DNA from: a gamma proteobacterium symbiont of Ctena orbiculata
GTDB taxonomy: Bacteria; Pseudomonadota; Gammaproteobacteria; Chromatiales; Chromatiaceae
Assembly: GCA_003094535.1 (NCBI GenBank)
Contig: NATV01000118.1
Location: forward strand, 1-64,000
DNA length: 64,000 nt
Reading direction: 5' to 3'
Each line of letters opens with the position of its first letter. Position 1 is the first letter of the stretch. The position numbers were made by a program, and so were the translations under genes. The notes below the pieces were generated by a model. That model was not told where the DNA came from. It saw nothing but the letters and a program-made list of their open reading frames with translations, and made no database searches. Positions 47,507-63,802 of the stretch are shown here, piece after piece.

Positions 47507-49612
47507 CTATTGCTGCTCAACAGCGATGGACTCCTGACCTTCCACGCCGTATACAGTTATCGCGACAGGTGCGGAACCGAATTTAACGGTAAAATTGCTG
47601 AAGTATTTCTGCCAACGATTTTTTGAGCCAACCCATCTCATCGATCGATCAAGCCCATTTCCACCTGCCGCACGATAGATGATCAATCGCAGATCGGCAG
47701 CGTCAGCCAATCCCGACGTCGTCCAGACAATCAGTTTATCGCTGCTGCTGATATAACGGGCACGGGTTATTTCCAACGTCAGATCGTAGCCGTTGCAATC
47801 CTGATCGATACCATCATGCTTTATTTCCATGGCCCCGGGAAAGACAGTCGGATCCGCATCATTACAGTCCACGTTGATGGTGAAGCCATCACCGTCAGCA
47901 TCTGCTGGATCATCCTCGATTATGGTCAAGCCAGCGGCACTTTGGGCTCCCAGGCTTGCCCCGCCTGTGGCATTGCTGAGTGTCAGATCGAGGGTTTCAT
48001 CACCCTCAAAGACGGTGTCGTCCAGAATAGTAACCGTAAACGATTGACTGGTCTCGCCATCGAGGAATGTCAGTGTCCCGCTGGCCTGCTGATAATCTTC
48101 ACCCGCCAGCGCGGTGCCGTCGGAAGTGGCGTAATCAACCGTAATATCGCCTGCACTGCCCCCGCTACGGTTGACATTGACGGTAATGGTGCCGGCGTTT
48201 TCATCCACACTGTAACTCGCGTTTTCAAAGTCAAGCTGGCCTGGTTGACTGTTCAATACCAGCCAATTATAGGCTGCTTGCAGATCGATCATGCCATAGC
48301 CGGAGTCGTTGTCCGGTCCAGCCGCGCCAAGATCAACCGCACTCTGCCGCAGCGCCTCTTCCAGCAGTGACACCTCCACGTTGGGAAAGGCTTGTTTGAG
48401 CAGCGCCATGCCACCGGCCACATGGGGCGCGGCAAATGAAGTACCGGTTACCTGAGTCGTCCAGGCCACGGGTAAACCGGAGGTGTGGGCTGACGTAGTG
48501 ATATTCTGCCCAGGTGCCACGACATCGGGAAAGGTCCCGCCGCCACAGGCTGAACTGCCACGCGCACTCATATCGATGACCGCCAGGTTACTATCCACCG
48601 CGCCTACCGAAAACGCCCCGGGATTGTTGGCCGGGCTGACACTGGAGTTGGGATTGGGACCGGTATTGCCCGCCGCGAACACCAGGGCGATACCCGCTGT
48701 CTTCATCACGGCGATGTCGTTTGCAAATTCTGTATTGCAGCTATTCTGCGTACCTTGGAGGTACCATGAGTTATTCACAATGTCAGGTGCATCATCGGTA
48801 TTCGGATCGCCATCAGGATCCAGCAGCCACTGGAAACCGGCGTGGATCGCACTTAATGACGCCGAACCCTGGTCATTGAAAATCTTTGCCGCAATCCACT
48901 GTGCGCCGGGCGCCATGCCGATGGAATTACCGCTGGCGTTGCCGCCGACTAGCACCCCCATTACATGGGTGCCGTGCCCGGTGGATGCACTGGCACTGTC
49001 GTATGGGCTGGTGGAGTTTACATCATAGGGATTGAACCAGCTATTGCTGCCCCCACGGTATCTTGTACTCAAGTCGAGATGGCTGGGCTCGACACCGGTA
49101 TCCATGCTGGCAACAACCATCCCGGTTCCGTCGTAGCCGGCCGCCCAAAGATTTTCTGCACCGACGGCCTGAAGATTCTGTTCCGGCAACCAGTCCGACG
49201 CAGGCACGACCACGTCTGCATCCAAGCTGATGCTCTCGACATAACTGCGTCTTGCGAGCCATGCAATCCTATCGACGCGAAGACTCAGGCTGATACCGTT
49301 GGTAATCCAGAGATCCATTATGCTTTGCGCGCCCTGGGTCCTGAGCTCCCTCTTCAGATTGACGACGTCCTGGCTGGCCATCTTCCCTTTCAACGCGGAG
49401 ATCATCCGCCTCGTGCGCTGATTTCTGTCGCTGTCATTGAAGCTGTTTGGATTGACCTTGTCATTGAATCTGACGATCACGTCGATATAGCTATCTTCCG
49501 GAACGCTCGCTATCCTGTCGAGCAATGCCTGATCCAGGGTGGCGGCTTGAAGCGGTATCGACAGGAGAAAAATGACTAACGCTGACATAGTCAATTGCAT
49601 AGATTGTTTCAT
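47507..49612 (-). CDS. secreted subtilisin with Calx-beta and MopE-type metal-binding motif
   Basis: 701 residues from ATG 49612 (AGGGGTAATTAGT upstream). Signal peptide (1-23), I9-like prodomain (about 24-135), S8 peptidase with a full triad: Asp171 (SMDTG), His213 (GHGTH), Ser392 (GTSFAAP) and oxyanion Asn315. A Calx-beta calcium-binding domain (about 456-565) follows, then a MopE-type motif DADGDGFTINVDCNDADP with PGAMEIKHDGIDQDCNG (about 570-610) known to bind metal, and a C-terminal beta domain of about 90 residues. Last gene of the oxidase operon, 63 bases after the SCO fusion. It may process the giant protein or the oxidases. Confidence 0.92.
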   Translation of the reverse strand: MKQSMQLTMSALVIFLLSIPLQAATLDQALLDRIASVPEDSYIDVIVRFNDKVNPNSFNDSDRNQRTRRMISALKGKMASQDVVNLKRELRTQGAQSIMDLWITNGISLSLRVDRIAWLARRSYVESISLDADVVVPASDWLPEQNLQAVGAENLWAAGYDGTGMVVASMDTGVEPSHLDLSTRYRGGSNSWFNPYDVNSTSPYDSASASTGHGTHVMGVLVGGNASGNSIGMAPGAQWIAAKIFNDQGSASLSAIHAGFQWLLDPDGDPNTDDAPDIVNNSWYLQGTQNSCNTEFANDIAVMKTAGIALVFAAGNTGPNPNSSVSPANNPGAFSVGAVDSNLAVIDMSARGSSACGGGTFPDVVAPGQNITTSAHTSGLPVAWTTQVTGTSFAAPHVAGGMALLKQAFPNVEVSLLEEALRQSAVDLGAAGPDNDSGYGMIDLQAAYNWLVLNSQPGQLDFENASYSVDENAGTITVNVNRSGGSAGDITVDYATSDGTALAGEDYQQASGTLTFLDGETSQSFTVTILDDTVFEGDETLDLTLSNATGGASLGAQSAAGLTIIEDDPADADGDGFTINVDCNDADPTVFPGAMEIKHDGIDQDCNGYDLTLEITRARYISSSDKLIVWTTSGLADAADLRLIIYRAAGGNGLDRSMRWVGSKNRWQKYFSNFTVKFGSAPVAITVYGVEGQESIAVEQQ

Positions 49613-49675
49613 ACTAATTACCCCTATCGACTTCACTTCTTTGAGATATCAGGATTATCGGACATATCACACCAC

Positions 49676-51661
49676 TCAGTTGTCCGCCTGAAACGCGTGC
49701 CTTTGCCCTTCGAGCAAAACCTGCTCGATTTGAGTTGCCATCTCCCGGGGGTCTATTCCATGATCAAAGTAGTTGATGGGGCGACCATCCGGACCCACAA
49801 AATAGGTCCATGCGGTATGGTCCACTACGTACTCCCCATCCACATCACCCGCAAAATATTGCGCTTGATAGGCTTTGGCCGCCCTGCGTATTTGCTGCGC
49901 CGTGCCCGTCATTCCCACTATCTGCGGATGAAAATAGTTGACATAGGTTGCCAGTTTTTCAGGTGAATCGCGTTTTGCATCCACACTGATGAATATCGGT
50001 TGCACACTTTCGCTCAGCTCACCCAGGATCTCCAGCACATTGGCGATGGTGACCATATTCGTTGGGCAGATATCCGGGCAGAAGGTGTAGCCGAAAAATA
50101 CCAGCAGGTGTTTACCGTAAAAATCCTCTTCCGTGACCGTCTCACCATGGTGATTCACCAGCTCAAACGGGCCGCCGAATTTCTTCGGCGGTTCAAGTTC
50201 GTAACCTTTGTAGAGATAACGATCACCATACCGGTTGATGCTGCAATGGAATCGAATCAGCTGCAGTTGATACAGATGGCGGTTCAGATCGTTCTCACTG
50301 AGATCGAGTTGGTCAAGATCTCCGACATGAGATGCGGTTTTCTGCAGATGATCAAGAAAAGAGGTGCGTTGGGAGTTCTCTGCACTGATCAGATGATCGG
50401 CAAAGGTCAGCCAAAGGCTTCTGGCATCGGCACTCTGTTGAATAGCCTGGGGAATGTCCTCTTCCATATAGCCAAGCGTTCGCAGTACCTGCTCCCAGTC
50501 AGGCCTGAGTGTCGACTCATGCACAGCCTTGGTAAAATCATCGACATTACCCAAACAGTACTCGGAAGTGAAACCATAGCCATCCAATTTATCCTCTTGG
50601 ACCGGCCGGACTCCGCTGCACAGTTCGCGGTCCTTCGTTTTGGCCGCGAGCGCTGTCAGGCACGCCGAACGCACAGGTATCATCAAGAATCCGGGATCAA
50701 TCGACCATCCTATACCGATCACGTTGTCCGGGATCTTGCGACATAGATCAGGGTTATTGAATCTCACCGCCATGTCATAGTAAGCGCGCTCCAGGTCGCT
50801 GACCTTGCGATAGCCGCTGGATATGCGCTGGTTGTCCGCTTCAGCCGTCACCGATGAGCTGCTCCCCTTTTTCAACCCAAGCGCAATCATGGCTTCATTG
50901 TCTACTTCACCCGGGCTGTACCTGAACTGTGCGAATCTCTCACCGCAATCCTTACTGATGCGCCCCTGGACACAAAGCCGCATAGCTCGGCTCATAACCC
51001 AATCCTGCTCTCGCTCCTTCTCTTCCTCGGTGTAGTAGTGCAGTTGGTCCTCGGCTCGTTCCATATTGCTGAAATCGGGAAGTTTCTGCAGACGCTCGAC
51101 AAAGCTTGCGCGCTGCTTTTCCCGGGTGATCGCTTGATAAAAACGCTTCCACGCCAGCCTGTCATTTTCGACATTGTTCGCTGTTAAGTCAGACTCGGAA
51201 AAACCCAGCTCTCTCAACAGGGCTTGATGGTCAAAATCGAAGGGGAATGGTTTTTTCAGCTGGATCAGACGACCGGCCTGATAACGGCATCGCTCGGGAT
51301 CGAGCCAATTCATGACACCGGCGCCGTACGGGATCGGCTCTACCTTGTCGCACCAGCTCAGATCGGCACTGTTGACGGCGAGATAGTAGTAGCAGTGTGA
51401 ACGCGCCAGATTGGGTTTGCGCACCCGATGCAGGGCATTGGGTGAGATCTTTTCGCACATTTCGGGTAATTGCAGATCCGCGGCAATACCGATATAGGCA
51501 AACTCCAATGTATTGGGTTTTCTGAAACTGGTCAGATCCTTGGCGTATAGCGAAGTCACCGATAGCAGAGATGACGCGCCCAGAACAAAGACAGCGGCTG
51601 ATCGTATTGCGTTTCTTAGTACTACGTTAAGATCTACTGCCTGTCGCTGTATTGAAGCCAT
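49676..51661 (-). CDS. SCO1 domain fused to a duplicated four-cysteine module
   Basis: 661 residues. Membrane or signal segment at about 18-40. Residues about 54-200 and 294-445 are two copies of an unrecognised module. Each has four Cys: 69, 90, 104, 125 and 307, 334, 348, 369, with the last three spaced 14 and 21 in both, and each continues into a helical part (LLRELGFSESDL / VLRTLGYMEEDI, then FVERLQKLPDFS / FLDHLQKTASH). The C-terminal 165 residues are a SCO1 domain with GYTFCPDICPTN (CxxxC) and His in VVDHTAWTYFV. Probably a periplasmic, membrane-bound copper loader dedicated to the oxidases of this operon. Confidence 0.85.
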   Translation of the reverse strand: MASIQRQAVDLNVVLRNAIRSAAVFVLGASSLLSVTSLYAKDLTSFRKPNTLEFAYIGIAADLQLPEMCEKISPNALHRVRKPNLARSHCYYYLAVNSADLSWCDKVEPIPYGAGVMNWLDPERCRYQAGRLIQLKKPFPFDFDHQALLRELGFSESDLTANNVENDRLAWKRFYQAITREKQRASFVERLQKLPDFSNMERAEDQLHYYTEEEKEREQDWVMSRAMRLCVQGRISKDCGERFAQFRYSPGEVDNEAMIALGLKKGSSSSVTAEADNQRISSGYRKVSDLERAYYDMAVRFNNPDLCRKIPDNVIGIGWSIDPGFLMIPVRSACLTALAAKTKDRELCSGVRPVQEDKLDGYGFTSEYCLGNVDDFTKAVHESTLRPDWEQVLRTLGYMEEDIPQAIQQSADARSLWLTFADHLISAENSQRTSFLDHLQKTASHVGDLDQLDLSENDLNRHLYQLQLIRFHCSINRYGDRYLYKGYELEPPKKFGGPFELVNHHGETVTEEDFYGKHLLVFFGYTFCPDICPTNMVTIANVLEILGELSESVQPIFISVDAKRDSPEKLATYVNYFHPQIVGMTGTAQQIRRAAKAYQAQYFAGDVDGEYVVDHTAWTYFVGPDGRPINYFDHGIDPREMATQIEQVLLEGQRHAFQADN

Positions 51662-51676
51662 GATAATCTTGCTCCA

Positions 51677-52189
51677 TCATGGCTGATAGCCGCAGTGGCG
51701 GCTATAGGTATAGTAGGATCGCAAAGACAGACACTTTTTGTAATTGTCCTCATCCAGGTGGATTTCACACTGCGCCCTTGCCTGTTCGGCCAAATCACAA
51801 TAGTACTGTTCCTTGAATGCCATGTGTTCCGCGATTGTGTATTCGCCGACAATTTTTTCACTTGGCAATGGCTGGGAAGGTGCAACCTGGAAGCGCCCCT
51901 TCCAAGCGGTTTCCGCACTCTCTTCTCTTTGGTATTGGCCTTGCATTACTGTTGACTTGGAGCTTGACAACCTGTCAGTAGTGGCGGTCACAGCGGATTT
52001 CTGACTGGTCACTTGCTCCGTTTGATGCTCAATTTTCGCTGCCTGTCTCGAACTGTCAGGCGTCAAATCGTCACTCTGATGTTCGGTAAGCCAGAGGAGC
52101 AGCAACGTCACTGCAAATATAAACGCAAAAAGAAGCAGCAGTTTATCCAAACCTGCTTTCTCTTCCATATCTATATGGCTTTTGATCAT
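51677..52189 (-). CDS. single-span membrane protein with a four-cysteine periplasmic end
   Basis: 170 residues: short cytoplasmic N-terminus, membrane helix at about 16-34, a Ser/Thr/Gln-rich linker and a C-terminal domain with Cys131, 141, 153 and 166. The Cys spacing and the Tyr-rich context (EQYYCDLA, LRSYYTYSRHC) recall the modules of the neighbouring SCO fusion. GGAGATTGATAC precedes the ATG and the gene lies four bases after the prodomain gene. No family recognised; I infer a partner of the SCO fusion. Confidence 0.72.
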   Translation of the reverse strand: MIKSHIDMEEKAGLDKLLLLFAFIFAVTLLLLWLTEHQSDDLTPDSSRQAAKIEHQTEQVTSQKSAVTATTDRLSSSKSTVMQGQYQREESAETAWKGRFQVAPSQPLPSEKIVGEYTIAEHMAFKEQYYCDLAEQARAQCEIHLDEDNYKKCLSLRSYYTYSRHCGYQP

Positions 52190-52192
52190 GTA

Positions 52193-52654
52193 TCAATCTC
52201 CTTGAACGACAGGAGCCGAGTCAATCGACTTGGGAGAGGAAACAAAAGGCACCTCTTTATCGAGGCGGATAGCCGACACATCCGTTCGTTCAGCAATCAT
52301 TGGAATGAGCTCGGAACGGACAGTCACGGCCAGCAGGTTGGTAACCCAAATAGAGCGGAGATTTTTACCGCCCTTGGTCTTCAGGTAGTCAATCAGATCC
52401 GCCTGGCTGGCTTCCGCATGTGACCGCAGCAGATGCGGCAGTGCCCGTCGACGCTCAGGCGTGGAAAGTTTTTTGATCTTGTTGAGATCCGCCTTCTCGG
52501 CCATGGTGATGATGATCGCGATTTCCTCTTCAGGCTCGGATACCGCCAGTCTCGATTCCAAATCCTGACTTAAGGTATTGCCGAATACTGTTGTGGCGAC
52601 TAGCGAGGCAGCAACGATAAGAACTGCCGGCATTTTCACGATCATTCTTGACAT
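52193..52654 (-). CDS. free-standing subtilisin prodomain-like protein
   Basis: 153 residues: signal peptide (1-25) and one domain that follows the prodomain of the subtilisin at 47507-49612: compare SIWVTNLLAVTVRSELI and DVSAIRLDKEV here with DLWITNGISLSLRVDRI and VESISLDADV there, after a similar PEEEIAIIITM / PEDSYIDVIVRF strand. No peptidase domain follows. Such I9-type domains fold and inhibit their protease, so this is probably a separately secreted inhibitor or folding helper. It sits 20 bases after the 52675-53190 gene. Confidence 0.75.
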   Translation of the reverse strand: MSRMIVKMPAVLIVAASLVATTVFGNTLSQDLESRLAVSEPEEEIAIIITMAEKADLNKIKKLSTPERRRALPHLLRSHAEASQADLIDYLKTKGGKNLRSIWVTNLLAVTVRSELIPMIAERTDVSAIRLDKEVPFVSSPKSIDSAPVVQGD

Positions 52655-52674
52655 CGATTAACCTTCGCCGCGTA

Positions 52675-53190
52675 TTACTCGATCTTCATGTCTTCAATTA
52701 CCAGGTCTCCGATGACCAAAGTCACCTTGTCACCCCGCTTGAAGCGGCGGCCGGGATTGGCAAACATGGTGGTATAGATATTACCTTCGCGGGCGTTATC
52801 CTTACCCTGTCGTAGCGTGCCTACCTTGGTGCTGGGAGGCACAACGGAGACATTGTCATTAGGATCCCAGACATAGGGCTTGATCTTGTAGCTGTGGAGA
52901 TAGGCGGCCTTTTTTGCATCCACCACCTTGTGCCTGAAATCCAACATATAACCAACTGCCGTAAGGCGCAGGCTTTTTATCTCGACCCCGAACTTATCGA
53001 CGATACTCTTTAGATGCTCCACATTTTCCGCGGAGTATCGAATCTCCGGAAGTGCGGGCTGTGGAGCCGTCGCGTTCGCGGAGAGAACGGCCGAATTGAA
53101 CAGCACAAATCCAAGCAGCAAAAGCAACAGATAGCTCTTAGCCAAATTCGTTATGACCCCAGGCCGGTTTTTGAGATTAGCGGGTGACAT
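52675..53190 (-). CDS. exported conserved protein of the oxidase operon
   Basis: About 171 residues from ATG 53190 (AGGAGTGGTCGT upstream). Export signal (about 15-40), then a compact domain with GVEIKSLRLTAVGYMLDFRHKVVDAKKAAYLH and a C-terminal MFANPGRRFKRGDKVTLVIGDLVIEDM. I remember similar hypothetical proteins near copper and respiratory genes in other bacteria but cannot name a family. The two-part beta-rich pattern suggests a small periplasmic beta-sandwich. Confidence 0.75.
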   Translation of the reverse strand: MSPANLKNRPGVITNLAKSYLLLLLLGFVLFNSAVLSANATAPQPALPEIRYSAENVEHLKSIVDKFGVEIKSLRLTAVGYMLDFRHKVVDAKKAAYLHSYKIKPYVWDPNDNVSVVPPSTKVGTLRQGKDNAREGNIYTTMFANPGRRFKRGDKVTLVIGDLVIEDMKIE

Positions 53191-53270
53191 ACGACCACTC
53201 CTGTAATTCATTCATATTCGCATTACATCGGCGAGAATAATGCAACTCAGATCGATTCTTAAGATGACTA

Positions 53271-53305
53271 ACTCCGCCAGTGGGACCTTGACCCACTGGC
53301 GGAGT
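53271..53305. other. strong hairpin inside the oxidase operon
   Basis: ACTCCGCCAGTGGG (53271-53284) and CCCACTGGCGGAGT (53292-53305) form a perfect 14-bp stem with a 7-base loop, in the 140-base gap between the third oxidase gene and the next gene. No T run on the minus strand. It may cut the operon's expression into a high upstream part (secreted proteins) and a lower downstream part. Confidence 0.7.
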
Positions 53306-53329
53306 CCTTGCTATCTGCCTTCCGAGTTA

Positions 53330-54595
53330 TCAGGGTCCTACTGCAACAGCCGGAGTAACCCCAGCAACTGGAGGGATCTCACCGAAGCGATCGAGCTCCA
53401 GCATCAGCTGATACCCCAGAGGGCCTCCGTCATCAGGATCAACATTGTTCACATAGATATCCCTGGTCTGCAGCGGCGATACGAGAAACACCTCCTGCAT
53501 TTTTTCGTAGACGGTACCGGTATCGTCCTTTAAATCGGCTCCGTCGAGTGAGAACCTGTAGAGATAGCCATCCTCGGCAATCGCACGCGCACCAAAACCG
53601 CGCGGTTCATCGGCGCAGAACTTACAGGCAATAGAGTGATAGCGGTTGCCTGCGCTGCGTACCCTGAGCAGAATCTTGCGATTGGCATTGGGAAGTCCAA
53701 TATCCGCCTGCAGATCCAGCTTCGATCCGTCGAAGGGTTCGCCGTTGATCAATATGTACTTCGGTGCATACTTGATGGTACTGGTCGTACGCAGCCCCTG
53801 GTTCGCGGGAGAACAAGCACCCGCATCCTCATCGGGTCCGTAACAACCACGATCCACCGCGTAATGGATAGCGGGATCGATCTCGCTGTAGAAGAGGGAT
53901 GCTTCACGAAAATAACCGGTACGCGCCCCCGCGTAGGGCCTGTTGCCGCCACCGACGCATCTTCCCTGCGTTGCATTGTAGGGAGAAGAGGAAGGACAGA
54001 CCGTCAGCGGACCATGCAGACCCATCTGCACCTGTACCTGCATATGGGTCCCGCTGTGGTAGATGAAGGTCCCCTCGCGAACATTGCTGAAGGTATAGGT
54101 CACCGCCTGCGGACGACCGCTGGTAAGCCGCCGTGTCTCTTTGACCTGCGACCGCATCCGGCCCGCGAAATTGGGATTGCCGCCGCCGTAGTATCTTGGA
54201 CCGTCAGCTGCATTGTTACCTGGATTTGGATCAACCACCGCCGGCATGGGCTGGCCGGGTATCATGACCGACGTCCTGTTGTCGGCCACCCGGTTATCGG
54301 CACCCGGGATACAGTTCAGCAGATGCACGACCACGTCGTCGCCGGCGTTGGTCACGATCTCAGGTCCCGGCGCCTGCAGGGCGGCGTTATTGTTGACCTG
54401 GCCGCAAGCCGTCGGCGGTGAGCCGGGATCGTAGTTCATGTATCCCCACATGGGGATTGCTTCCCCGTTGATCGTCTGCAAAAACCGTCCGGCAGCCAGG
54501 TAGACATCTACCGCGCTGGCCATTCCCGACCAGAGCATGCCGAAGGCGCCGACCAAGGCTGTCGCTTTCAAACTGTTCTTAACTAAGGATTTCAT
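53330..54595 (-). CDS. multicopper-oxidase-like protein C (degenerate copper sites)
   Basis: 421 residues: signal peptide (1-28) and two cupredoxin-like domains. The first ends with GTFIYHSGTHMQVQVQMGLHGPL, in which His180 and His184 replace the usual HxH pair; a second His occurs in RYHSIACKFCADEP. No HCH..M type 1 copper site is present, so on its own it is unlikely to be a full oxidase. AGGAGATTAAAGC precedes the ATG. Third of three oxidase-like genes, 29 bases after protein B. Likely a structural or copper-handling subunit of the complex. Confidence 0.82.
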   Translation of the reverse strand: MKSLVKNSLKATALVGAFGMLWSGMASAVDVYLAAGRFLQTINGEAIPMWGYMNYDPGSPPTACGQVNNNAALQAPGPEIVTNAGDDVVVHLLNCIPGADNRVADNRTSVMIPGQPMPAVVDPNPGNNAADGPRYYGGGNPNFAGRMRSQVKETRRLTSGRPQAVTYTFSNVREGTFIYHSGTHMQVQVQMGLHGPLTVCPSSSPYNATQGRCVGGGNRPYAGARTGYFREASLFYSEIDPAIHYAVDRGCYGPDEDAGACSPANQGLRTTSTIKYAPKYILINGEPFDGSKLDLQADIGLPNANRKILLRVRSAGNRYHSIACKFCADEPRGFGARAIAEDGYLYRFSLDGADLKDDTGTVYEKMQEVFLVSPLQTRDIYVNNVDPDDGGPLGYQLMLELDRFGEIPPVAGVTPAVAVGP

Positions 54596-54623
54596 TGCTT
54601 TAATCTCCTTTTACCTTGACCGC

Positions 54624-56195
54624 TCAGCAGCCGGAACCATTATTGCTGTCGAAACAACTGCCCCTGGGAATCGTAACAGTGTTACCGTCGGGATCCTCAA
54701 AGGGCTCAACCATCATGATGCTGAGATAGCCGCCGGGAAATACATCTTTGTTGATCAACTCTTTTTCCCGGTGGGAGTGCCAGATCATGGCCAGTCCGCC
54801 GTTGGCATTCAGGCCGCCCTCACCCGGAGGCAGGGTGCCAAACTTGCCGAGGAAGGGACTGCCGCTCCAGAAACCGCCGAAGGCGAGGTCGGAGAGAGGT
54901 GGCTGGGATGTCGGCAGGGGCACACCGCGATCGGCTGCATCGACGATACAGAGGGGATCGTCCACGAAAGGCTGAAATACATCATCAGGCTCTCCCGGTG
55001 TGCAGACCACGCTCGCATAATCGGCTGCAGCGTTACCGTAGACATCGAATCCCATCCCCTTGGGCATCCAGTTCCAGGTGACGTCCACCGTCTGTCCGGG
55101 GATCTGGTCAATGGTGTATTCACGCCATTGCAGATTGGGAGCGGCGCCCCCAGGATTCGTCACAGCGTTAGTGTTGCTGGCGTGGGCTATGCGTCCATCC
55201 ACGGCCACAATCGCAGACTCATCGCCATGGGGGTGGAAGGGATGAACCTGCCGTCCCCCGGCAACGTAGCGCACCAATGAGGTCTGTCCAGGGTGGGTCT
55301 GACTGATGCCGGAATAAGGCTGGGTCGGCAGCCAGGGCAGATTGTTGCCCTGGAAGTTATCGAACGCAGCGCGGCCGTTGATAAACCAGTACTCGGGAAA
55401 AAAGCCCTCGATAAAGCGTCCGCCAGGGGTGGTCTGCGTGATGTTACGGAGCGCTTCAGTGAGCGCCACGATCTTCTCTTCCTGGGAAGCGCAGGAGGTC
55501 TGGCCGAGATTGAGGCATGTCTCCCAATCCTGTTCACCCGTGCCGCGGACGATCTGATGGTAATCCGCATCCAGATCGGTGGCGAAGACCAGATACTCGT
55601 GATCGTATACGGTCTGGTTTGACGGGTATGCCTTTTGCGTGGCGCCTGACATCGGTACCGGGGCGTTGGGATTATCGATATGGGCGAAGCCGTCGGGACG
55701 AATGACGATAGCCCCCGTCAGTCCCATCGCCACACCAAGATCGGTGCGGTAATCACTGTAGTAAGTGTATGTGCCCGGACGTTTGATAATGAACTGGTAA
55801 GTCTGTGTGGCACCCGGTGCCACCGAACCGGCGGGGCCATCAGGACAGTCAGTACAGTAGACATTGAGTCCCGGTGCCGTGAACGAGATGGGCATCTCCC
55901 CTGGCTCACCGCTGAGGTTGTTGGTCAGGGTCACAGTAATCACCGTATCGTTCCCTGCCGGTCCCTCCTGAAGGATCAGGGTCGGTCCGGGATATTGTGG
56001 GACGGGTTGGCCCACCACGCCATACATCCACATATAGCTGACGCCACCATCCGGCGTGGATATGAAGTTGGCCTTCGCCTCCAGATTGAAGCTGGTACCA
56101 CTAATACCCGGGATAGCGGCTTGAAGGCTGAATGGGGCAGACATCAGCCCCGACAGCATGAGGGCGGCCGCACCGCTCTTTATGATCTTATTCAT
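54624..56195 (-). CDS. multicopper-oxidase-like protein B (trinuclear-site half)
   Basis: About 523 residues from ATG 56195 (AGGAGCAGGACG upstream; the longer frame adds 15 codons). Signal peptide (1-27). An N-terminal cupredoxin domain has lost its copper ligands (TYTYYSDYRTDLG). The C-terminal part has HPFHPHG (His318, 321, 323) and IWHSHREKE (His473, 475), the two His motifs that normally occur in the last domain of a multicopper oxidase, but without the Cys of a type 1 site. A CTDC pair lies at about 114-117. It would complete a trinuclear centre together with protein A. Confidence 0.87.
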   Translation of the reverse strand: MNKIIKSGAAALMLSGLMSAPFSLQAAIPGISGTSFNLEAKANFISTPDGGVSYMWMYGVVGQPVPQYPGPTLILQEGPAGNDTVITVTLTNNLSGEPGEMPISFTAPGLNVYCTDCPDGPAGSVAPGATQTYQFIIKRPGTYTYYSDYRTDLGVAMGLTGAIVIRPDGFAHIDNPNAPVPMSGATQKAYPSNQTVYDHEYLVFATDLDADYHQIVRGTGEQDWETCLNLGQTSCASQEEKIVALTEALRNITQTTPGGRFIEGFFPEYWFINGRAAFDNFQGNNLPWLPTQPYSGISQTHPGQTSLVRYVAGGRQVHPFHPHGDESAIVAVDGRIAHASNTNAVTNPGGAAPNLQWREYTIDQIPGQTVDVTWNWMPKGMGFDVYGNAAADYASVVCTPGEPDDVFQPFVDDPLCIVDAADRGVPLPTSQPPLSDLAFGGFWSGSPFLGKFGTLPPGEGGLNANGGLAMIWHSHREKELINKDVFPGGYLSIMMVEPFEDPDGNTVTIPRGSCFDSNNGSGC

Positions 56196-56259
56196 CGTCC
56201 TGCTCCTAGGAGATTCGTTGGATATGTGATCGTAAGTCATGTTTCTCTCCTCCGCGGCC

Positions 56260-57633
56260 TTAATTGATCCGGATCTCGGTCATGCCGCCACCGATATCCT
56301 GTTCGTTGTTGGAGAGGAACTCCAGATTGGAGACATAGAGGAAATAGGTCCCCGCCGGGACACCGGCCGTGTCCAGGAGAATATCCCAGGTCCTGCCACC
56401 ACCCAGAGTGGCCGAATGGGTCTTGAAGTGACGCTTCAGCCCACTGTCCAGACCGTTGGGACTGGCTCCCTCATCCATCAACTCGCGCGCGCCGGTACCG
56501 ACGATCCGCATCGGCACTGCCGGTGACTGCAAGGTCAGTATATCCGTGGTCGACAGGTTGGAGAGTCGTATCAGGAAGGTCTCGCCGGCAGCGATATCGA
56601 TGATAGAGGGCAGTTTCTGCGCCGCAGAACTCTGTCCGTCATTGGCGACGTCGGCGGCTCTGGGATTACCCTGGTTGGTCCGGGCGGCGAACTCGGTATC
56701 GCCATTGGGTAGCTGGGTGTCAGGGTTCACCGTGTCGGGATAACCACGGCCGTTGAACATCAGGTAGTCATCCTTCATGCCGAGAAAGTCCAGTGGCTGC
56801 ACATTCTCGGAGGCATCGTGAAAAATGCCATCGTAGGTGATCATCATCAATGGTATCTCACCGTCGTAGGCGGTAGAACCGTCGCCGTCGTTGAAGACAT
56901 AGCTCCCCGGCGGCGTGGCAGCATCAAAACCGCCGCTGCAATCGACGGGGCCGAAGCCGGTTGCACAGGCACCCTGGTTCTGCCGCGGCTCCACCCAGAG
57001 GTTGGCGAACATGCCCATTTGCATATGTTCGGTCGCCTCTACGTGGCAGTGATAGAAATAGGTGCCCGGGTCCACCAGGTTGTAGAAGTAGGCCAGGCTC
57101 GCCAGGGGGTTGGGCGACAACGACATCTCCGGCACCCCGTCATAGAAATTGTTGGCGTTGGGGAAGCCGTGATAGTGAATGGTGTGGGCGTCGAACAGGT
57201 CCGGACGCGGGGTGAAGGGGAAGTTGGACAGGGTGATGAACCAACGCTGTCCCTCACGCTGGACCACGGTCGGCGCCGGCTGATCGCCGCCCAGCTGCAT
57301 CTCCTTCATGAAGTCATCAGGTGGGACACCGGTCAACTCTCTCGGCGTATCGCCTTGGGCCGGAGCTGTCGGTGTGACGTTTTCAAAGCCGAAGGTATAG
57401 AGCCTGCGGCCGTCCGCCATCATATTGTAGCCGTCGGTGCCAACAACATGGATACAGGCGTAGTCGTTGTCAATAATGCCGTCGGAATCCAGGTCGCCTT
57501 CAACGCCCGGGTTCGCCACATCGGGATCCTCCGGGCACTGCACGTAGAACTGCGAGGCGGATACCGATCCCGCAGCAAAAAGCAGTGTTAACGAGGCCGC
57601 CACGGTTGTGAGTGGGAATCGTGTAAGTTTCAT
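56260..57633 (-). CDS. multicopper-oxidase-like protein A (type 1 copper half)
   Basis: 457 residues: signal peptide (1-27), then an N-terminal cupredoxin domain with HTIHYHG (His150, 153, 155) and YHCHVEATEHMQMGM (His195, Cys196, His197, His203, Met208). These are the first two His motifs of a multicopper oxidase plus a complete type 1 copper set, with two extra residues between the HCH and the next His compared with laccases. The second half is a cupredoxin-like domain without copper ligands. GGAGAGAAAATC precedes the ATG. It has the electron-entry site; protein B has the remaining His motifs. Confidence 0.88.
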   Translation of the reverse strand: MKLTRFPLTTVAASLTLLFAAGSVSASQFYVQCPEDPDVANPGVEGDLDSDGIIDNDYACIHVVGTDGYNMMADGRRLYTFGFENVTPTAPAQGDTPRELTGVPPDDFMKEMQLGGDQPAPTVVQREGQRWFITLSNFPFTPRPDLFDAHTIHYHGFPNANNFYDGVPEMSLSPNPLASLAYFYNLVDPGTYFYHCHVEATEHMQMGMFANLWVEPRQNQGACATGFGPVDCSGGFDAATPPGSYVFNDGDGSTAYDGEIPLMMITYDGIFHDASENVQPLDFLGMKDDYLMFNGRGYPDTVNPDTQLPNGDTEFAARTNQGNPRAADVANDGQSSAAQKLPSIIDIAAGETFLIRLSNLSTTDILTLQSPAVPMRIVGTGARELMDEGASPNGLDSGLKRHFKTHSATLGGGRTWDILLDTAGVPAGTYFLYVSNLEFLSNNEQDIGGGMTEIRIN

Positions 57634-57663
57634 GATTTTCTCTCCATCTATTTCGCCTAGCGG

Positions 57664-57693
57664 AAACGCCGCCGGGATTGCCCGACGGCGTTT
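57664..57693. other. hairpin between the giant protein and oxidase A genes
   Basis: AAACGCCGCCGGG (57664-57676) and CCCGACGGCGTTT (57681-57693) form a 13-bp stem with one mismatch and a 4-base loop in the 67-base gap. On the minus strand only a TTT follows, so it is more likely an attenuator or processing site than a full terminator. Confidence 0.6.
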
Positions 57694-57700
57694 TTCCTCA

Positions 57701-60700
57701 TCAGTTCAGAGTGACGATGCCATCAGCGGTTTGATCATTGGGCACCGACCGTATGACGATGTGGTCACCGGCCTGGGGTACGGCTGCCGGGTCGGCAGGC
57801 GCCACCTCACCGGTATTCCAGATACCATCGCCATTGACGGTGACACCGGTTGCGATCAATGCCCCGTTTCTGTGGAGCCTGATCTCCATGGTACCGCCAC
57901 CGACCTGCAGATCGGTGGTACCCTCAACCTGCCAGATACCGGACTCCTGCTTGAACTGCGCCGTGGTAACGGTGATCGTCTCCGGCAGTGCCGCCGTGGG
58001 ATCGACCCGTACACGAACCCGTGCTGTGTCGGTCAGGCCGCCGCTGTCCTCGATCTCGTAGAAGAACTCATCACGATTGACACCGCTGCCCGTGAAGCCG
58101 CCGAAGGGCCGGTACAGGATGGTGCCGTCGCCCTGGATCTCCGCGGTACCGTTGGCCGGCTGCGTCGTGATCTGGGAGACAGAGATGATATCTCCAAAAT
58201 CCGGATCCGAGTCATTGAGCAGGACGTTGATGACTGTCGGCACACCCTCATTGGTACGCGCACCAACCCCCGCTCCCGCATCATTCACGGCATTCGGCGG
58301 ATTGTTGACCGGAGCGGTGCCGCCCGACACCTGATCGGCACCGGCATCCTGCAGGCCATTGCCGCTCGGGCGGGTCTCAGCATCCACGTCCACGGACAGC
58401 GGAGTGCCGAGGGAACCGTAGCGACCGGTCAGATCCTGACCGACACCCACCGCGTTCGAGAACTGAGTGATGTGGTAGTCGTACCTCGATACCGGATCCT
58501 CAACCTCGACCAGCGTCAGCGGGGTGAACAGCAACTGGGTATCGTTGCCGCCTTCGTCCGCCGCGGTCGATGCCAACAGGTCGTTGACAACCGGATTGAC
58601 GAAGCCCGCATTCAACGCGATATCGTTATTGAGGTTGGTGCCGTCGTAGGCACAGCTGTCTGGCGTATCCGCTCCGGTGCGCGCGAGCAGCGAGTAGCGG
58701 GGTGTCAGGCACTCGCCCGGCACACCGACCACACCCAGATCCCAATCGTCGTTACCTATGCCTGTGTAGGCAGGATGCTGGCTCAGCGGACGAATGGTCT
58801 CTGCCACACTCTTATCCAGCCAGAAGGAGCGGTTGCCGTTGAAGATGTTGTTCTTCAACACCGCCGGATGGGCATAGGTCACCCGATCGTTGCCGCCGCC
58901 GATCGCGGTCTGCGCGGCCATCGCGGCAGCGAGACCGGTGCTGTGCGCTTGCGCGACCAGACCCGCAGGCTGCGGATCGGAGAGGTTGCCGCTGGGATCG
59001 CGGACGTCCTGGGCCACGGAGGCGTTGTCATTGTTGGCAACGGTGTTGTGGATCACGTCCACCCGTACCGCGTCGGACAGGTTGATGCCGGCGCCCCACT
59101 GACCCGAGACGTTGTTCTGAACCAGGTTGTTGAGCACCAGGATCCGGTGCCAGCGGCCCTGGCTGGTCAGGCCATCGTTGAGGGCAGTGACGTCCTCACC
59201 GTTGATGCCCTTGAGCGAGATGGCGCCGCCGGGTGCCGAACCGCCCAGGTTGCCGTGGAACAGGTTGCGGTCGATGGTGATCGAGCCGGTACCTTCGGTC
59301 AGGCCGGAGCCGGGGATGTTGCCGAGCGCGGCCGGGGATTCACCGGCAAGCTCGATGCCGCCGCCGCCACCGCCGATCTCGTTACCCTGGAACACCTCGT
59401 TGAAGATGATCCGGTTGTCGCGAATCACACCGTCCTCGGCGTTACCGTCACCGGCTGTACCGATACCCAGGCCACCGACACGACCGACCTGCGAGATACC
59501 GCCGCCACCGGTGCGGCTGAAGTTGCCGCAGACCAGGTTGTTGGAGACCTCGTAGTTGTCCGCGCCGGTGTAGAGGGCGATACCGCCGCCGTTGAAGAAA
59601 CCCTTGTTCTGGATCACTTCGTTGTAGGCGATAGTGATATCCGGATTGGTCCCCTCAAGGTCGGCGGGATCGAGGTCCTGCTCCCCTCCTGCACCGCGGG
59701 CGTTAAGATTAGCCTGCAGCGGGTTGCCGATCCGGATGCCGCCGCCATATTGCCCCAGGTTGCCGATGGTCTTGTTGTTGCTGATGTTCAGCCCGTCGGC
59801 ATAGGCGTTGACGAAGATGCCGCCACCCAGGTTCGAGCCCTGGATATGAAAGCCGTCAATTCGCGCGGTGCCGGCGTTGTTGGCAAACCGGTTCGCAGAC
59901 GGCATGACCAGGAAGCCGGGGGCGTCCTGAGCCGGCAGGGTCTCAAGCTGACCCGGGAGCACGCCGACGTCGCCACTGGCAACAAGTGCGGCCAGATTGT
60001 TCTTCCAGCGCACGAGCTTGTCGCTCTCGCCCGGCAACTGCGGGGTGCCCGCACCGAGGGAGAGCGGCGAGGCGAAGAGCTGGGTGGACGGCGCGCCGGC
60101 CCCCTGAACCACAACCTCCTTATAGACAATGACGTTCTCGTCGTAGTTACCGGCGGTGACCAGAATCAGGTCGCCGTCATTCGCCGCATCGACTGCGTCT
60201 TGGATCGGCAGGCCTGGATCACTATCTGTAACGACTGTGACCGTCCCGGCGTCGACACCGACATGCAGGGTCACACCAGTGTTGGTCGACTCGCCGTTGT
60301 CACCGCGGGTAACGATGAGCTGACCGGTCTGCAGGGCTGCTGGAGCCGGGCTTGGTACGGTAGCGACCACTTGGCCGTTCATCCATCCCAGATTTGCGGG
60401 CGGGAAGGTGTATTGACCACCTTCATAGACCACACTGACCGAGCCGACGGTGTTACCGAAGCCGTGGTCACGCAGTATCCGGTCTGTCAGATTGCCACTG
60501 CTGGGATCGGGCACCAACTCGTCGCCCTGGGAAACAATGGTGATCGTCTTACCGGCAGCGTCGCCGGAGAGCACCGGACCCGCATAGTCGCTGGTCGTCA
60601 CATTGTTGATCACCGGCTCACCAAATGCCGCCGAGCAGTCGGTCTGCGCCTGCAGCGGGCCGACGAATGCGGCGAGGCGAATGATTGGCGTATCGAGATA

Positions 60701-63700
60701 GGTCGCCTTACCCGGTTCGAAGTTGAAGGTATAGCAGGTGGTGCTGTACCGCGGATCATAGAAGGGATCCGGGAAGGTACCGTCCGCGAGCGGACCCGGG
60801 TGGTTGTTACAGAAACGCACCATCATCGGCGAGATGCCGGATGGAATCGGCAGACTCTGCGAGACCGTGGCAGGCAGCAGCGTGTTATAGGATGAGAATT
60901 CACTGCTATAGATACGGGTGATCTCCCTGCCTGTGTAGTCGAAGAACGAGATCGGCAGGAATGGAGGCGCGAACTTCTCGGTCGAAGTCGGTTTACCGGC
61001 GGCGGTCTCGTTTGCCAGGTCGTCGGTGATCCGTCCAATCGCCTTGGCCGCGATTGGCACTTCAGTATGCAGATAGAAGTTCACCGCGGAGTTCTGGGCT
61101 AGACCGGCCTCACCGGAATCCGCCAGAAACTGGAAGCGCTGATTACAATGACGCAGGGTCTCTCCGGCCAATGGCGCATCAACCCCGGGAAACAGGGCGA
61201 GTTCCGCCGGTACGGTATAGGATCCACCCGTGCATCGGCCCAAACCTTCAGGCAGGGCTGCCGTGCTCGGGGTGAATTCAGGACCGAAATCGACATTCTT
61301 GTCCTGGGAACGCGAGACCTTGTAGACAGGCTGCGGTATACCGTTCGCATTTTGGAACCTGGATGTCGGCGGATAGACCTGGACGATGTACCCGGCGGAT
61401 CCGCCCGGCAGATGACCAGGTGCGGCTGGAGTGAAGTTGTTTGTGATAAAACCGGGCAAACCGACGAGGTCCGACGGAAAGTTGCCGGTGGGATTTTCAT
61501 AACCGCCGGCGCCGAATGCGTAACCGCCGTCGAACACACCGTCCTTGATCTGGTTCCAGTTGGAAAGACCGTCAAGACAGACATCCTGTGGTACACCCTG
61601 CGCGGTCTTCAGCGCAGGATCGAGGGTGTCTACACAACCGGTCGGTTTACTATCATCCCAGCTGTCGGTCCAAGTGATGTCGACGGCATCGCCAAAATCG
61701 AAACCGTTGGTGTAACCGACACCGGGCTGCACGTGCGTACAATTGGGAGCCGCCACGTCGCAACGGTTGATATCCTCGGGACCGGGGAAGTTATCCAACG
61801 GCCAGTTATCCTGGTCGGGTTGTTGAAGACCGCCAATACCGTTGATATTGACTATGTTCTCATTCTCATAGGCAGTACCGGCATTGATGATGCGTCCCGC
61901 GAACAGGGCCACCTGGACATGGGGAATACCCGGCTCCCAAGGCTCCGGGCCATAGATCTCAGGATCGTCTTCTGCGCGGGTGGCGGCATAGTGGACGATA
62001 CCGGACACACCGCCGTTCTCACCTGGCCCCCAGAGCGCCTTACCCCAGTCGATGCGCAGGCTCTGACCGGCGAAGCCCTGTATGGCCTGGGTCAGGATGG
62101 GACCGCCGGCGTCGGCGGAAAGCTTGATCTCCACATCGGGATTGCGAACGCCTTCGCCAAAACCGCCATCCACTACTGCTCCGCCCAGATCGTTGACGAC
62201 GGTTACGCCGGTCGCCTTGAAGCGGGCGAAATCGACCTCGGTCACCAGCCAATGGAACCAGGGGAAGATCGACTCATAGGGTGCGGAGCCCGCACCGTCG
62301 GTCGGGAAGGCCTGGTACTCGGTACCGTCGCGGAAGCGCAGCAGCGTCGCCTGCTCGAGCAGAGGCAACTCTCCTGCATCCCAGACCGCGTTCTCGTTGC
62401 TGTCGAAGTAGACATTCTGGGTCAGCTCGTTGAACCACATCTTGCCCTGGACACCGCCGTCAGGCAGTGCGCCCAGGTCAATATTGGCATCCACAATCTC
62501 CACTGTCTGGAAACCGATGATGACGTGCAGGAACTTGTCCCAGACCACCAGTTGATAGAGGCCGGGGGCAAAACCACCGATGGAGAAGTTGCCGTCGGCA
62601 TCGCACTCGGTCACCCCGGCGCCCTCGTTGCTCACCCCGCCGATGGTGTTGACGGCGATCAGGCAGACACCGTTCTGGCCGACCAGAAAGGGCGCGCCGT
62701 TAAAACCGTCGCGGCCGGGAGGTGCCGACAAATGGCTCTTGTTGACCTGACCGCTGATGGAGAAAGCGCCATCAACGCCAAGCGCGGTGCGCTGATCATG
62801 GTCAGCCGGCGTCCAGCCGTGAAAGATATGCGGGAAGGAGGGGCCGAATTCCACCAGGCGCTGACCGTTGCCCGGCGCCACCCAGGCGTCGACAACCTTG
62901 GTGCCCTCGATGGTGGTATTCTGATACCAGCCGGGTGCGCACTGCGGATTGGATGCGATCTCTTCGATGGTCTGCGTGTTGGGATCGCAGGCGGGATCGT
63001 TGAGATTGGTCGTCGGCGGTACGGTGATGATGCCGTACTTGCCGGGGGCAAGAAACTTGATCACCAGCTCACCGTCACCTGGAGCGGAACAGTCCGGAAC
63101 GGAGCAACTGGTGACGATCTCACCGGTACCGAGCACATCGACCACCGGCATGCCGCCTACCAGGACAAAGGTACCGTCCGGATTCTGCTGATAGGTGGTG
63201 CCGAGGGGGTTGCCAAAGGCATCCTGCTGCACCTGACCTCCGGCATCCTCAACCAACACCGAAAAACCGGCAATGCCGGGTTCGCCTACGTCGGGTGAAT
63301 TGTTCAGCGGTCCGCCGAAACCGTCATAAAAAACCTTGACGGATATCTGAGAGGTCTGAAACGGTTCGCCGTTGGGGACAACCACGGTGGTGTTGGTGTT
63401 ACAACCGGGCACCTTCGCGGCGCCTGTCTGCACCCCAGGATTCGGATTGTTCGGGATGACCGAGACAAAACAGTCGTTAATCCCCGTGCCCGTCAGGTCG
63501 CCAAGATCGATAACCGATGCAGAGCCATTATTGACCCGGCCCTGCTTGATGGCATGGCAGTGACTGCGGTGGAAATTAAAAGACTGATCCCCCTCAGGCG
63601 TCGGATCGGCGTCCTGTGGATTGACAGGGAACATGCAGTCCTCCTGCACGAGATAACGGAAACCGTTATATGGATTGCCGTCGCCATCTACAATGCTGAG

Positions 63701-63802
63701 GTTGAATGTTTCAGCTTGAGCATCAGGAGATGTGGCTAAACCTGTAAATATAAATCCGCCCAATAGTGCGGCAGCGATCCTAATTCGTTTAGTCTGTTTC
63801 AT
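57701..63802 (-). CDS. giant secreted multidomain protein with parallel beta-helix
   Basis: 2033 residues. Signal peptide (1-30), a His/Cys cluster FHRSHCHAIKQ (His78, His81, Cys82, His83), several SdrD/CNA-B-like beta-sandwich modules (one at about 337-420 with TECDADGNFSIGGFAPGLYQLVVWD-type sequence), an IPT/TIG-like domain (about 1060-1180), a right-handed parallel beta-helix (about 1185-1800) with Asn-rich turns such as ISNNKTIGNLGQYGGGIRI, an Ig-like domain with VLLNDSDPDFGD (about 1844-1930) and a final beta domain. AGAGG lies about 10 bases before the ATG. First gene of the operon; probably a surface or matrix scaffold, possibly a copper-binding partner or substrate-binding platform for the oxidases. 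Confidence 0.88.
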   Translation of the reverse strand: MKQTKRIRIAAALLGGFIFTGLATSPDAQAETFNLSIVDGDGNPYNGFRYLVQEDCMFPVNPQDADPTPEGDQSFNFHRSHCHAIKQGRVNNGSASVIDLGDLTGTGINDCFVSVIPNNPNPGVQTGAAKVPGCNTNTTVVVPNGEPFQTSQISVKVFYDGFGGPLNNSPDVGEPGIAGFSVLVEDAGGQVQQDAFGNPLGTTYQQNPDGTFVLVGGMPVVDVLGTGEIVTSCSVPDCSAPGDGELVIKFLAPGKYGIITVPPTTNLNDPACDPNTQTIEEIASNPQCAPGWYQNTTIEGTKVVDAWVAPGNGQRLVEFGPSFPHIFHGWTPADHDQRTALGVDGAFSISGQVNKSHLSAPPGRDGFNGAPFLVGQNGVCLIAVNTIGGVSNEGAGVTECDADGNFSIGGFAPGLYQLVVWDKFLHVIIGFQTVEIVDANIDLGALPDGGVQGKMWFNELTQNVYFDSNENAVWDAGELPLLEQATLLRFRDGTEYQAFPTDGAGSAPYESIFPWFHWLVTEVDFARFKATGVTVVNDLGGAVVDGGFGEGVRNPDVEIKLSADAGGPILTQAIQGFAGQSLRIDWGKALWGPGENGGVSGIVHYAATRAEDDPEIYGPEPWEPGIPHVQVALFAGRIINAGTAYENENIVNINGIGGLQQPDQDNWPLDNFPGPEDINRCDVAAPNCTHVQPGVGYTNGFDFGDAVDITWTDSWDDSKPTGCVDTLDPALKTAQGVPQDVCLDGLSNWNQIKDGVFDGGYAFGAGGYENPTGNFPSDLVGLPGFITNNFTPAAPGHLPGGSAGYIVQVYPPTSRFQNANGIPQPVYKVSRSQDKNVDFGPEFTPSTAALPEGLGRCTGGSYTVPAELALFPGVDAPLAGETLRHCNQRFQFLADSGEAGLAQNSAVNFYLHTEVPIAAKAIGRITDDLANETAAGKPTSTEKFAPPFLPISFFDYTGREITRIYSSEFSSYNTLLPATVSQSLPIPSGISPMMVRFCNNHPGPLADGTFPDPFYDPRYSTTCYTFNFEPGKATYLDTPIIRLAAFVGPLQAQTDCSAAFGEPVINNVTTSDYAGPVLSGDAAGKTITIVSQGDELVPDPSSGNLTDRILRDHGFGNTVGSVSVVYEGGQYTFPPANLGWMNGQVVATVPSPAPAALQTGQLIVTRGDNGESTNTGVTLHVGVDAGTVTVVTDSDPGLPIQDAVDAANDGDLILVTAGNYDENVIVYKEVVVQGAGAPSTQLFASPLSLGAGTPQLPGESDKLVRWKNNLAALVASGDVGVLPGQLETLPAQDAPGFLVMPSANRFANNAGTARIDGFHIQGSNLGGGIFVNAYADGLNISNNKTIGNLGQYGGGIRIGNPLQANLNARGAGGEQDLDPADLEGTNPDITIAYNEVIQNKGFFNGGGIALYTGADNYEVSNNLVCGNFSRTGGGGISQVGRVGGLGIGTAGDGNAEDGVIRDNRIIFNEVFQGNEIGGGGGGIELAGESPAALGNIPGSGLTEGTGSITIDRNLFHGNLGGSAPGGAISLKGINGEDVTALNDGLTSQGRWHRILVLNNLVQNNVSGQWGAGINLSDAVRVDVIHNTVANNDNASVAQDVRDPSGNLSDPQPAGLVAQAHSTGLAAAMAAQTAIGGGNDRVTYAHPAVLKNNIFNGNRSFWLDKSVAETIRPLSQHPAYTGIGNDDWDLGVVGVPGECLTPRYSLLARTGADTPDSCAYDGTNLNNDIALNAGFVNPVVNDLLASTAADEGGNDTQLLFTPLTLVEVEDPVSRYDYHITQFSNAVGVGQDLTGRYGSLGTPLSVDVDAETRPSGNGLQDAGADQVSGGTAPVNNPPNAVNDAGAGVGARTNEGVPTVINVLLNDSDPDFGDIISVSQITTQPANGTAEIQGDGTILYRPFGGFTGSGVNRDEFFYEIEDSGGLTDTARVRVRVDPTAALPETITVTTAQFKQESGIWQVEGTTDLQVGGGTMEIRLHRNGALIATGVTVNGDGIWNTGEVAPADPAAVPQAGDHIVIRSVPNDQTADGIVTLN

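Follow-up and report, generated by a model that had tools for sequence, protein, structure and literature searches.

A putative surface multicopper oxidase of a Ctena orbiculata symbiont with its copper-ligand motifs divided between two subunits

The closest described relatives of the operon considered here are clusters of exported copper proteins. In Sideroxydans lithotrophicus, the Slit_1812-1818 cluster encodes two cupredoxins with oxidase motifs and a larger third one without them, which bears adhesin- or polysaccharide-lyase-like domains; the cupredoxins were higher on magnetite than on Fe(II)-citrate, and the same report names similar clusters in Paraburkholderia, Ralstonia, and Anaeromyxobacter (PMC12016527). 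The OmpB (Geobacter) and MofA (Leptothrix) clusters contain a MofC-like cytochrome, which combines a haem motif with a periplasmic-binding domain, and sometimes an SCO1 protein (PMC5566968). We analysed a stretch of 64,000 nucleotides (hereafter the window; contig NATV01000118.1, positions 1 to 64,000) from a gammaproteobacterial symbiont of Ctena orbiculata, and in it an operon of nine minus-strand genes at 47507-63802, which encodes three multicopper-oxidase-like chains (A, B, and C) next to a giant exported protein. We take the host to be Candidatus Thiodiazotropha, a sulfur-oxidising symbiont of lucinid clams. While a preliminary description of this DNA saw no nameable system in the operon, its core matches the Slit_1812-1818 type (PMC12016527). 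The kind of cluster is already in print, uncharacterised, and what is added here is a proposed mechanism in which one copper site would be split between two subunits.

The connection to Slit_1812-1818 runs through Paraburkholderia. By profile matches, Paraburkholderia (L117) and Cupriavidus metallidurans CH34 (L116) encode A, B, C joined to the giant protein in one chain, and an exported protein, all in the same order. Given that Paraburkholderia is among the carriers named in PMC12016527, the window can be tied to the Slit_1812-1818 kind; strain ES-1 itself was compared by its published descriptions (PMC5566968, PMC12016527). On that basis, both have tandem exported cupredoxins, two with oxidase motifs and one without, and an SCO1 gene in the cluster. 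In Slit_1812-1818, as we read its description, and in L117 the giant part is fused to C, whereas in the window a gene of its own, the first of the operon, encodes it. A subtilisin, a prodomain, a four-Cys protein, and an SCO1 fusion are additions of the window, and the cytochrome found near Slit_1812-1818 has no counterpart among the window module genes. As for the OmpB and MofA clusters, the MofC-like gene present in relatives of the window operon shares the make-up reported for MofC in PMC5566968 (haem motif plus periplasmic-binding domain, the latter a Pfam match below its cut-off), but OmpB and MofA are single-chain surface multicopper proteins, whereas the window chains are separate.

Our comparison of loci starts from chain A. 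A scan with this chain returned 277 related loci, and the counts given below rest on the best 80 of the 277, chosen by chain A, which is present in all 80 by selection. The features that concern the copper site are the following.

57701..63802, minus strand: giant exported protein (2033 amino acids, aa), with beta-sandwich repeats, a beta-helix region, and a Big_9/cadherin tail; proposed surface scaffold.
56260..57633, minus strand: chain A (457 aa), with two cupredoxin domains, the first of which carries the type-1 copper motif and half of the trinuclear-site His.
57169..57186, minus strand: chain A motif HTIHYH (H150, H153, H155), invariant in 87/87 sequences.
57010..57051, minus strand: chain A motif HCHVEATEHMQMGM (H195, C196, H197, H203, M208), ligand residues invariant in 87/87.
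54624..56240, minus strand: chain B (538 aa), two cupredoxin domains; the other trinuclear-site His half in domain 2, type-1 Cys absent.
55227..55244, minus strand: chain B motif HPFHPH (H333, H336, H338), three His invariant in 84/84.
54771..54779, minus strand: chain B motif HSH (H488, H490), both His in 81/81 sequences reaching there.
53330..54595, minus strand: chain C (421 aa), A/B paralogue without copper-ligand motifs; proposed structural subunit.

The conserved copper-ligand motifs, as read from the alignments, are divided among these chains. The chain A set (n=87) comprises the 80 loci, four copies from the host genus, L116, L117, and the window; the chain B set (n=84) is the same minus three short B chains, and the chain C set (n=78) holds 75 loci, L116, L117, and the window, with the proviso that all sets include close relatives, so that their rows are not independent. 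Domain 1 of chain A carries an HxxHxH and an HCH...H...M motif, and A alone of the three retains the type-1 copper motif along with one half of the trinuclear-site His. Chain B alone retains the other half: the HxxHxH motif is followed by a second pair, HxH, which reads HSH exactly in 80 sequences and HDH in one, the remaining 3 of 84 ending earlier. In chain C, HCH or HxHG occurs in 0/78 sequences, and the His conserved in more than half of the rows (positions 184, 244, and 320 of the window chain, in 65, 66, and 50 of 78) all lie outside these motifs. The full set of type-1 Cys/His/Met and four HxH pairs is found in no single chain and is reached only by A and B together. Because the ligand halves are split between A and B and absent from C, a working site can probably be completed only where A meets B, and just once per complex, C and the giant protein serving as scaffold. 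All three chains do match Cu-oxidase_3 above its Pfam cut-off, in line with the earlier call of three multicopper-oxidase-like chains (no NCBIfam model was reached at its cut-off by these chains); that they are three oxidases is probably not so, since the ligand sets of A and B are complementary and C has none. Three independent oxidases were rejected on this ground, and the ligand split likewise argues against a homotrimer with three active sites.

The three chains are paralogues of the multicopper-oxidase fold (A-B, E 4e-32 over 311 columns; B-C, E 8e-40 over 303). AlphaFold single-chain models of A and B, with a predicted local distance difference test (pLDDT) of 76 and 78, respectively, are predicted to have two cupredoxin domains each with the fold of 3g5w, the Nitrosomonas europaea blue copper oxidase, which Foldseek ranked first by E-value for both (template-modelling score by target 0.74 and 0.68). 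At the level of profiles, domain 1 of A aligns strongly with domain 1 of 3g5w (independent E-value, i-E, 8e-20), whereas domain 2 aligns weakly (i-E 3.7) and lacks the His of 3g5w domain 2. Conversely, domain 1 of B aligns with domain 1 of 3g5w (i-E 5e-12), the His of which are missing from B, and the HPxHxH motif of the full B profile falls on domain 2 of 3g5w and of 2zwn, a metagenome laccase (i-E 0.028 and 0.011). When domain 2 of B was searched alone, 2zwn came first (whole-chain E 0.0055) and 3g5w third (E 0.022), and HPxHxH and HSH fell on both domain-2 HxH pairs of either structure. The B pairs thus likely correspond to the domain-2 pairs of two-domain oxidases. The likeness in motif places is strong for A domain 1, which makes the A half of the proposed site firm, and the B half is indicated by weak but consistent alignments and by invariance. 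In 3g5w and 2zwn both halves of the site lie in one kind of chain, whereas in the window they are split between A and B, and C has none.

We propose, with moderate confidence, that the operon encodes a secreted, surface-mounted multicopper oxidase of three different two-domain subunits with one A/B site. A, B, and C would take the places that three identical subunits hold in a two-domain oxidase homotrimer, and their six cupredoxin domains would close into a ring whose only working site lies at the A/B interface, a split counterpart of ceruloplasmin-like oxidases; in the simplest reading, the identical subunits of an ancestral ring diverged until one A/B site remained. Ceruloplasmin and MnxG have six cupredoxin domains and one trinuclear site in a single chain, and the proposed ring would have the same six domains and one site but in separate chains. 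Electrons would enter at the type-1 copper of A and O2 would be reduced at the A/B cluster, while C might link the enzyme to the giant protein and the latter hold it at the cell surface. Copper would be loaded by the SCO1 proteins, and the subtilisin and free prodomain may mature or release the enzyme. Many relatives encode a MofC-like cytochrome that may deliver electrons to the oxidase or take them from it; this host has lost it, and given the absence of a MofC-like match, its electrons would have to pass directly to O2 or use a different carrier. As the most likely substrate, and a best guess, we name a reduced metal (Fe or Mn) outside the cell; the magnetite-raised Slit cupredoxins, together with the Paraburkholderia cluster (L117), count for this metal link.

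If this is true, an oligomeric enzyme can lose all but one of its active sites and yet retain every subunit, and the oxidation of metals or minerals outside the cell would become accessible at the molecular level in many lineages of which little is known. The ligand split gives a printed but unexplained cluster a concrete, testable mechanism and explains why the three chains occur together. It also makes one ask which extracellular compound a clam symbiont that lives by sulfur oxidation might be oxidising. One might go further and see a widespread class of surface oxidases, in which a three-subunit, six-domain ring with one A/B site sits on a giant beta-helix adhesin and draws electrons from solid or dissolved metals in redox-boundary bacteria ranging from iron oxidisers to clam symbionts; this wider generalisation we put forward tentatively, as possible rather than probable.

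The recurrence of the core speaks for a genuine system. All of the best 80 loci have B, and most also have the giant protein (77), C (75), and the exported protein (58); a subtilase (40), SCO1 (30), and a MofC-like cytochrome (28) occur in half of them or fewer. The five loci lacking C (L049, L060, L096, L103, L111) stop in or shortly past B; of those lacking the giant protein, L051 and L090 start inside the A frame, and in L065 about 1 kilobase (kb) upstream of the A frame is matchless. The core thus stays together in these chain-A-chosen loci instead of being scattered, and giant-A-B-C recurs across distant genomes, which makes the operon more than chance. By their titles, 74 of the 80 are marked as metagenome-assembled genomes (MAGs), and about ten phyla are named: the groups include Pseudomonadota, Desulfobacterota-type bacteria, Myxococcota, Bdellovibrionales, and Nitrospirae, as well as Acidobacteria, Planctomycetota, Verrucomicrobia, Dehalococcoidia, and a candidate division. 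A chain-B match occurs in 19/22 genomes of the host genus and in 1/13 other genomes of the family, and class-wide a strong match (E <= 1e-90) in 7/274 genomes, a set read off at that threshold because the 153 matches at E <= 0.001 include ordinary oxidases. The system is broad but patchy. Some loci join its genes: C is fused to the giant protein in L075, L112, L116, L117, and L138, the giant protein to A in L110 and in L103, where the contig begins within the open frame, and in L084 the exported protein is joined to C. The C-giant and giant-A fusions support one complex.

Several observations weigh against the oxidase proposed here. No frame holding both A and B was found in any of the 80 loci, and the complex is a proposal from single-chain models of middling confidence. 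On the B side, the full profile had ascorbate oxidase as its best match, with 3g5w second; on 2zwn the piece with HSH reached 3.4 bits, and on 3g5w the alignment ends before HSH, while the domain-only HSH pieces were low-scoring too (7.1 bits on 3g5w, 3.8 bits on 2zwn). The window copy is long-branched (about 1.2 substitutions per site) and lacks MofC, so that its use may differ. Desulfosarcina, Desulforhopalus, and Geothermobacter are among the carriers, which is odd for an O2-reducing enzyme; these are genera from anoxic places. To our knowledge, no metal oxidation by Candidatus Thiodiazotropha has been reported, and the magnetite data are differential expression only (PMC12016527).

The complementary ligand sets are equally compatible with a dimer of A and B that lacks C. 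A and B could form a simple heterodimer with one site, C being a separate, adhesin-like protein of shared ancestry outside any ring, as its lack of ligand motifs and the long cadherin, DUF11, or beta-helix tails of C in some genomes suggest. Two-domain oxidases form rings of three, however, of which C would supply the third unit, and C adjoins A and B in 75/80 loci, with the five misses ending in or soon past B; we regard the heterodimer as unlikely. A low probability likewise goes to the idea of an electron conduit or copper-binding surface protein through which, without O2, electrons pass from a mineral or partner to the MofC-like cytochrome or the other way. The adjacency of this cytochrome to the system in 28/80 loci and the carriers in genera known from anoxic places fit such a conduit, but none of the four HxH pairs of A and B varies, which suggests retained O2 chemistry, and in the window species no MofC match reaches E <= 1e-20.

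With regard to the substrate, a reduced sulfur or organic (phenolic) compound in sediment or clam gill seems quite unlikely to us: the host and the carriers Thiobacillus, Sulfuricella, Sedimenticola, and Thioploca belong to sulfur-oxidising genera, yet Nitrospira, Methylocaldum, Planctomycetota, and Acidobacteria carry the system as well, and these are not known to share a sulfur lifestyle. Extracellular copper defence or Cu(I) oxidation of the CueO or PcoA kind would be in keeping with SCO1, with the MopE-type metal-binding motif of the subtilisin, and with the homologue in Cupriavidus metallidurans CH34 (L116), a strain known for metal tolerance. For such a role, however, there would be little need of a giant scaffold or of long adhesin tails, and it may be filled by another multicopper oxidase of the genome, a single chain that gave the only PF00394 match (L001); this explanation we judge very improbable.

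Within the host lineage, the operon appears to have been exchanged. The window chain A is 94% identical to that of a Ctena orbiculata gill-symbiont MAG (QBVC01000014.1, L036). In a genome of the same genus (G015), a response regulator and a histidine kinase flank the genus-type operon. The neighbours of this operon remain in the window genome (G000), 93% and 75% identical to the G015 regulator and kinase, and the site shrinks from about 18.8 kb in G015 to about 0.55 kb plus a 54-residue MofC-like remnant. The sister species G019 shows the same loss with a longer, decayed MofC remnant (135 residues, 39%). To judge from these comparisons, the genus-usual operon has been lost in the host species and one neighbour, leaving a scar. 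The MofC-like cytochrome is near full length in 13/16 same-genus genomes searched, while the window genome has no MofC-like match at E <= 1e-20; in G008 a chain-B match is absent, but the contig ends inside the MofC-like gene. The kinase and regulator frames are still open around the 54-residue remnant (G000:C75, L118:8407-11245) and may control something else.

The divergent window module, judged by its flanks, sits at a site other than that of the genus-type operon. These flanks adjoin in G015 and G004, 11 and 64 bases apart, and lie about 20 kb apart in G019, where the block between them holds the regulator, a second SCO1 gene, and all nine genes. In the window genome, the contig ends before the right flank, and a right-flank gene starts contig C30, consistent with the G019 arrangement. 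A right-flank homologue at G015:C1:3316086-3318224 has one internal TAA inside the aligned stretch. Trees of A and B jointly, of A only, and of B only (84 sequences each, rooted on L116/L117; 3/87 dropped for B chains below 300 aa) disagree and yield no stable sister of the window copy. In the joint tree, the window pair groups with L048 and the genus-type copies (support 0.96), a placement that speaks against an origin from a distant donor; the A-only tree places the window with L082, L094, L097, and L109 (support 0.87-0.97), the B-only tree with L068 and L093 (support 0.23-0.76), and its branch is very long in all three (1.0-1.2 substitutions per site). The new copy may have come by transfer, or both copies may be ancestral and one lost.

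The remaining genes of the module are the following.

52675..53211, minus strand: conserved exported protein (178 aa), without a confident domain or solved relative; homologue in 58/80 loci.
52193..52654, minus strand: free subtilisin-type prodomain (153 aa), by sister-species cross-matches.
51677..52189, minus strand: four-Cys protein (170 aa), membrane-anchored, Cys in the C-terminal part; no confident Pfam/NCBIfam family.
49676..51661, minus strand: SCO1 fusion (661 aa), with a C-terminal SCO1/SenC copper-loading domain (Pfam).
47507..49636, minus strand: exported subtilisin, with Pfam subtilase, Calx-beta, and MopE-type metal-binding motif; subtilase in 40/80 loci.
46622..47254, plus strand: second SCO1/SenC protein (Pfam), same module.
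45893..46591, plus strand: LuxR-type response regulator, same module.

Pfam agrees with the earlier calls of a subtilisin with a metal-binding motif and of an SCO1 fusion, SCO1/SenC being found in the second SCO1 gene and, in the 661-aa protein, at the C-terminal end. About 450 residues ahead of the SCO1 domain (49676-51661) form a Cys-containing region that occurs in 1/80 loci, that of the sister species. The free prodomain is supported through cross-matches: the sister-species subtilisin matches the window 153-aa protein (29% identity, E 7e-8), and the sister-species 153-aa protein matches the window subtilisin (25% identity, E 2e-11). A beta-helix in the giant protein is borne out by Beta_helix and NosD_copper_fam matches in relatives but not by a Pfam beta-helix call in the window copy, which has a weak NosD-type match only (E 1.8e-4). 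Among 20 relatives scanned, PF13229 Beta_helix was found in 5, NosD_copper_fam in 13, SdrD_B in 16, and polysaccharide-lyase fn3_3 in 13; against solved structures, the giant protein had a single match at E <= 0.01, to a stretch of cyclodextrin glucanotransferase. For the exported 178-aa protein, the sole match to solved structures at E <= 5 was a nanobody (E 0.89), and several relatives have a lipobox-like 'GC' close to the N-terminus, as read by eye.

The layout of nine consecutive minus-strand genes agrees with the open reading frames at 47507-63802, and the combination of structural partner, copper oxidase, copper-loading, and protease genes in one exported operon is supported. The intergenic gaps measure, in order, 39, 15, 3, 20, 118, 28, 19, and 67 bases, so that of the 3-140 bases given before the lower end stands and the upper end becomes 118. 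As a single system, the giant-A-B-C core holds, whereas the prodomain, the four-Cys protein, and the N-terminal extension of the SCO1 fusion are local extras; the second SCO1 gene and the regulator do lie beyond the operon end, but they belong to the module, given that in G019 they share one extra block with the nine genes. All nine proteins have a hydrophobic N-terminal stretch, in keeping with export or membrane anchoring: in a simple hydropathy scan, which is no signal-peptide predictor, the best 15-residue mean in the first 60 residues ranged from 1.37 to 3.11, and chains B and C fail a 19-residue cut at 1.6. Promoter-like sites were no commoner than in shuffled sequence (9 versus 8.9), and terminator-like sites numbered 17 versus 12.4 +/- 3.2 in shuffles. 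The 64-kb window holds no tRNA gene, and a search for long repeats as mobile-element boundaries found none at the three edges examined.

In the open-licence literature, we found no description of a split copper site and no paper combining 'Thiodiazotropha' with 'multicopper oxidase'; 'Slit_1816/1817/1818' led to PMC12016527 only, and a term search of the main text of the Ctena symbiont paper PMC6712303 gave a single match, in the reference list.

Some other stretches pair the same partners with other proteins. L164:11573-17473 encodes a single-chain oxidase of 1966 aa that has fn3 domains and is a probable OmpB-like protein, and the stretch around it also holds a MofC match; this candidate gave no match to the A, B, and C profiles at E <= 1e-3. 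SCO1 and MofC-like genes lie beside a 759-aa single-chain oxidase at L163:8850-13685; at L162:10056-14393 their neighbour is a protein of 616 aa that matches no Pfam family at E <= 0.001. Since SCO1 and MofC stand beside different partners in these two cases, they appear to be a travelling module, and MofC does not mark the split system exclusively. Elsewhere in the window (8879-10522), a chemotaxis receptor with a C-terminal hemerythrin domain is a possible O2 sensor.

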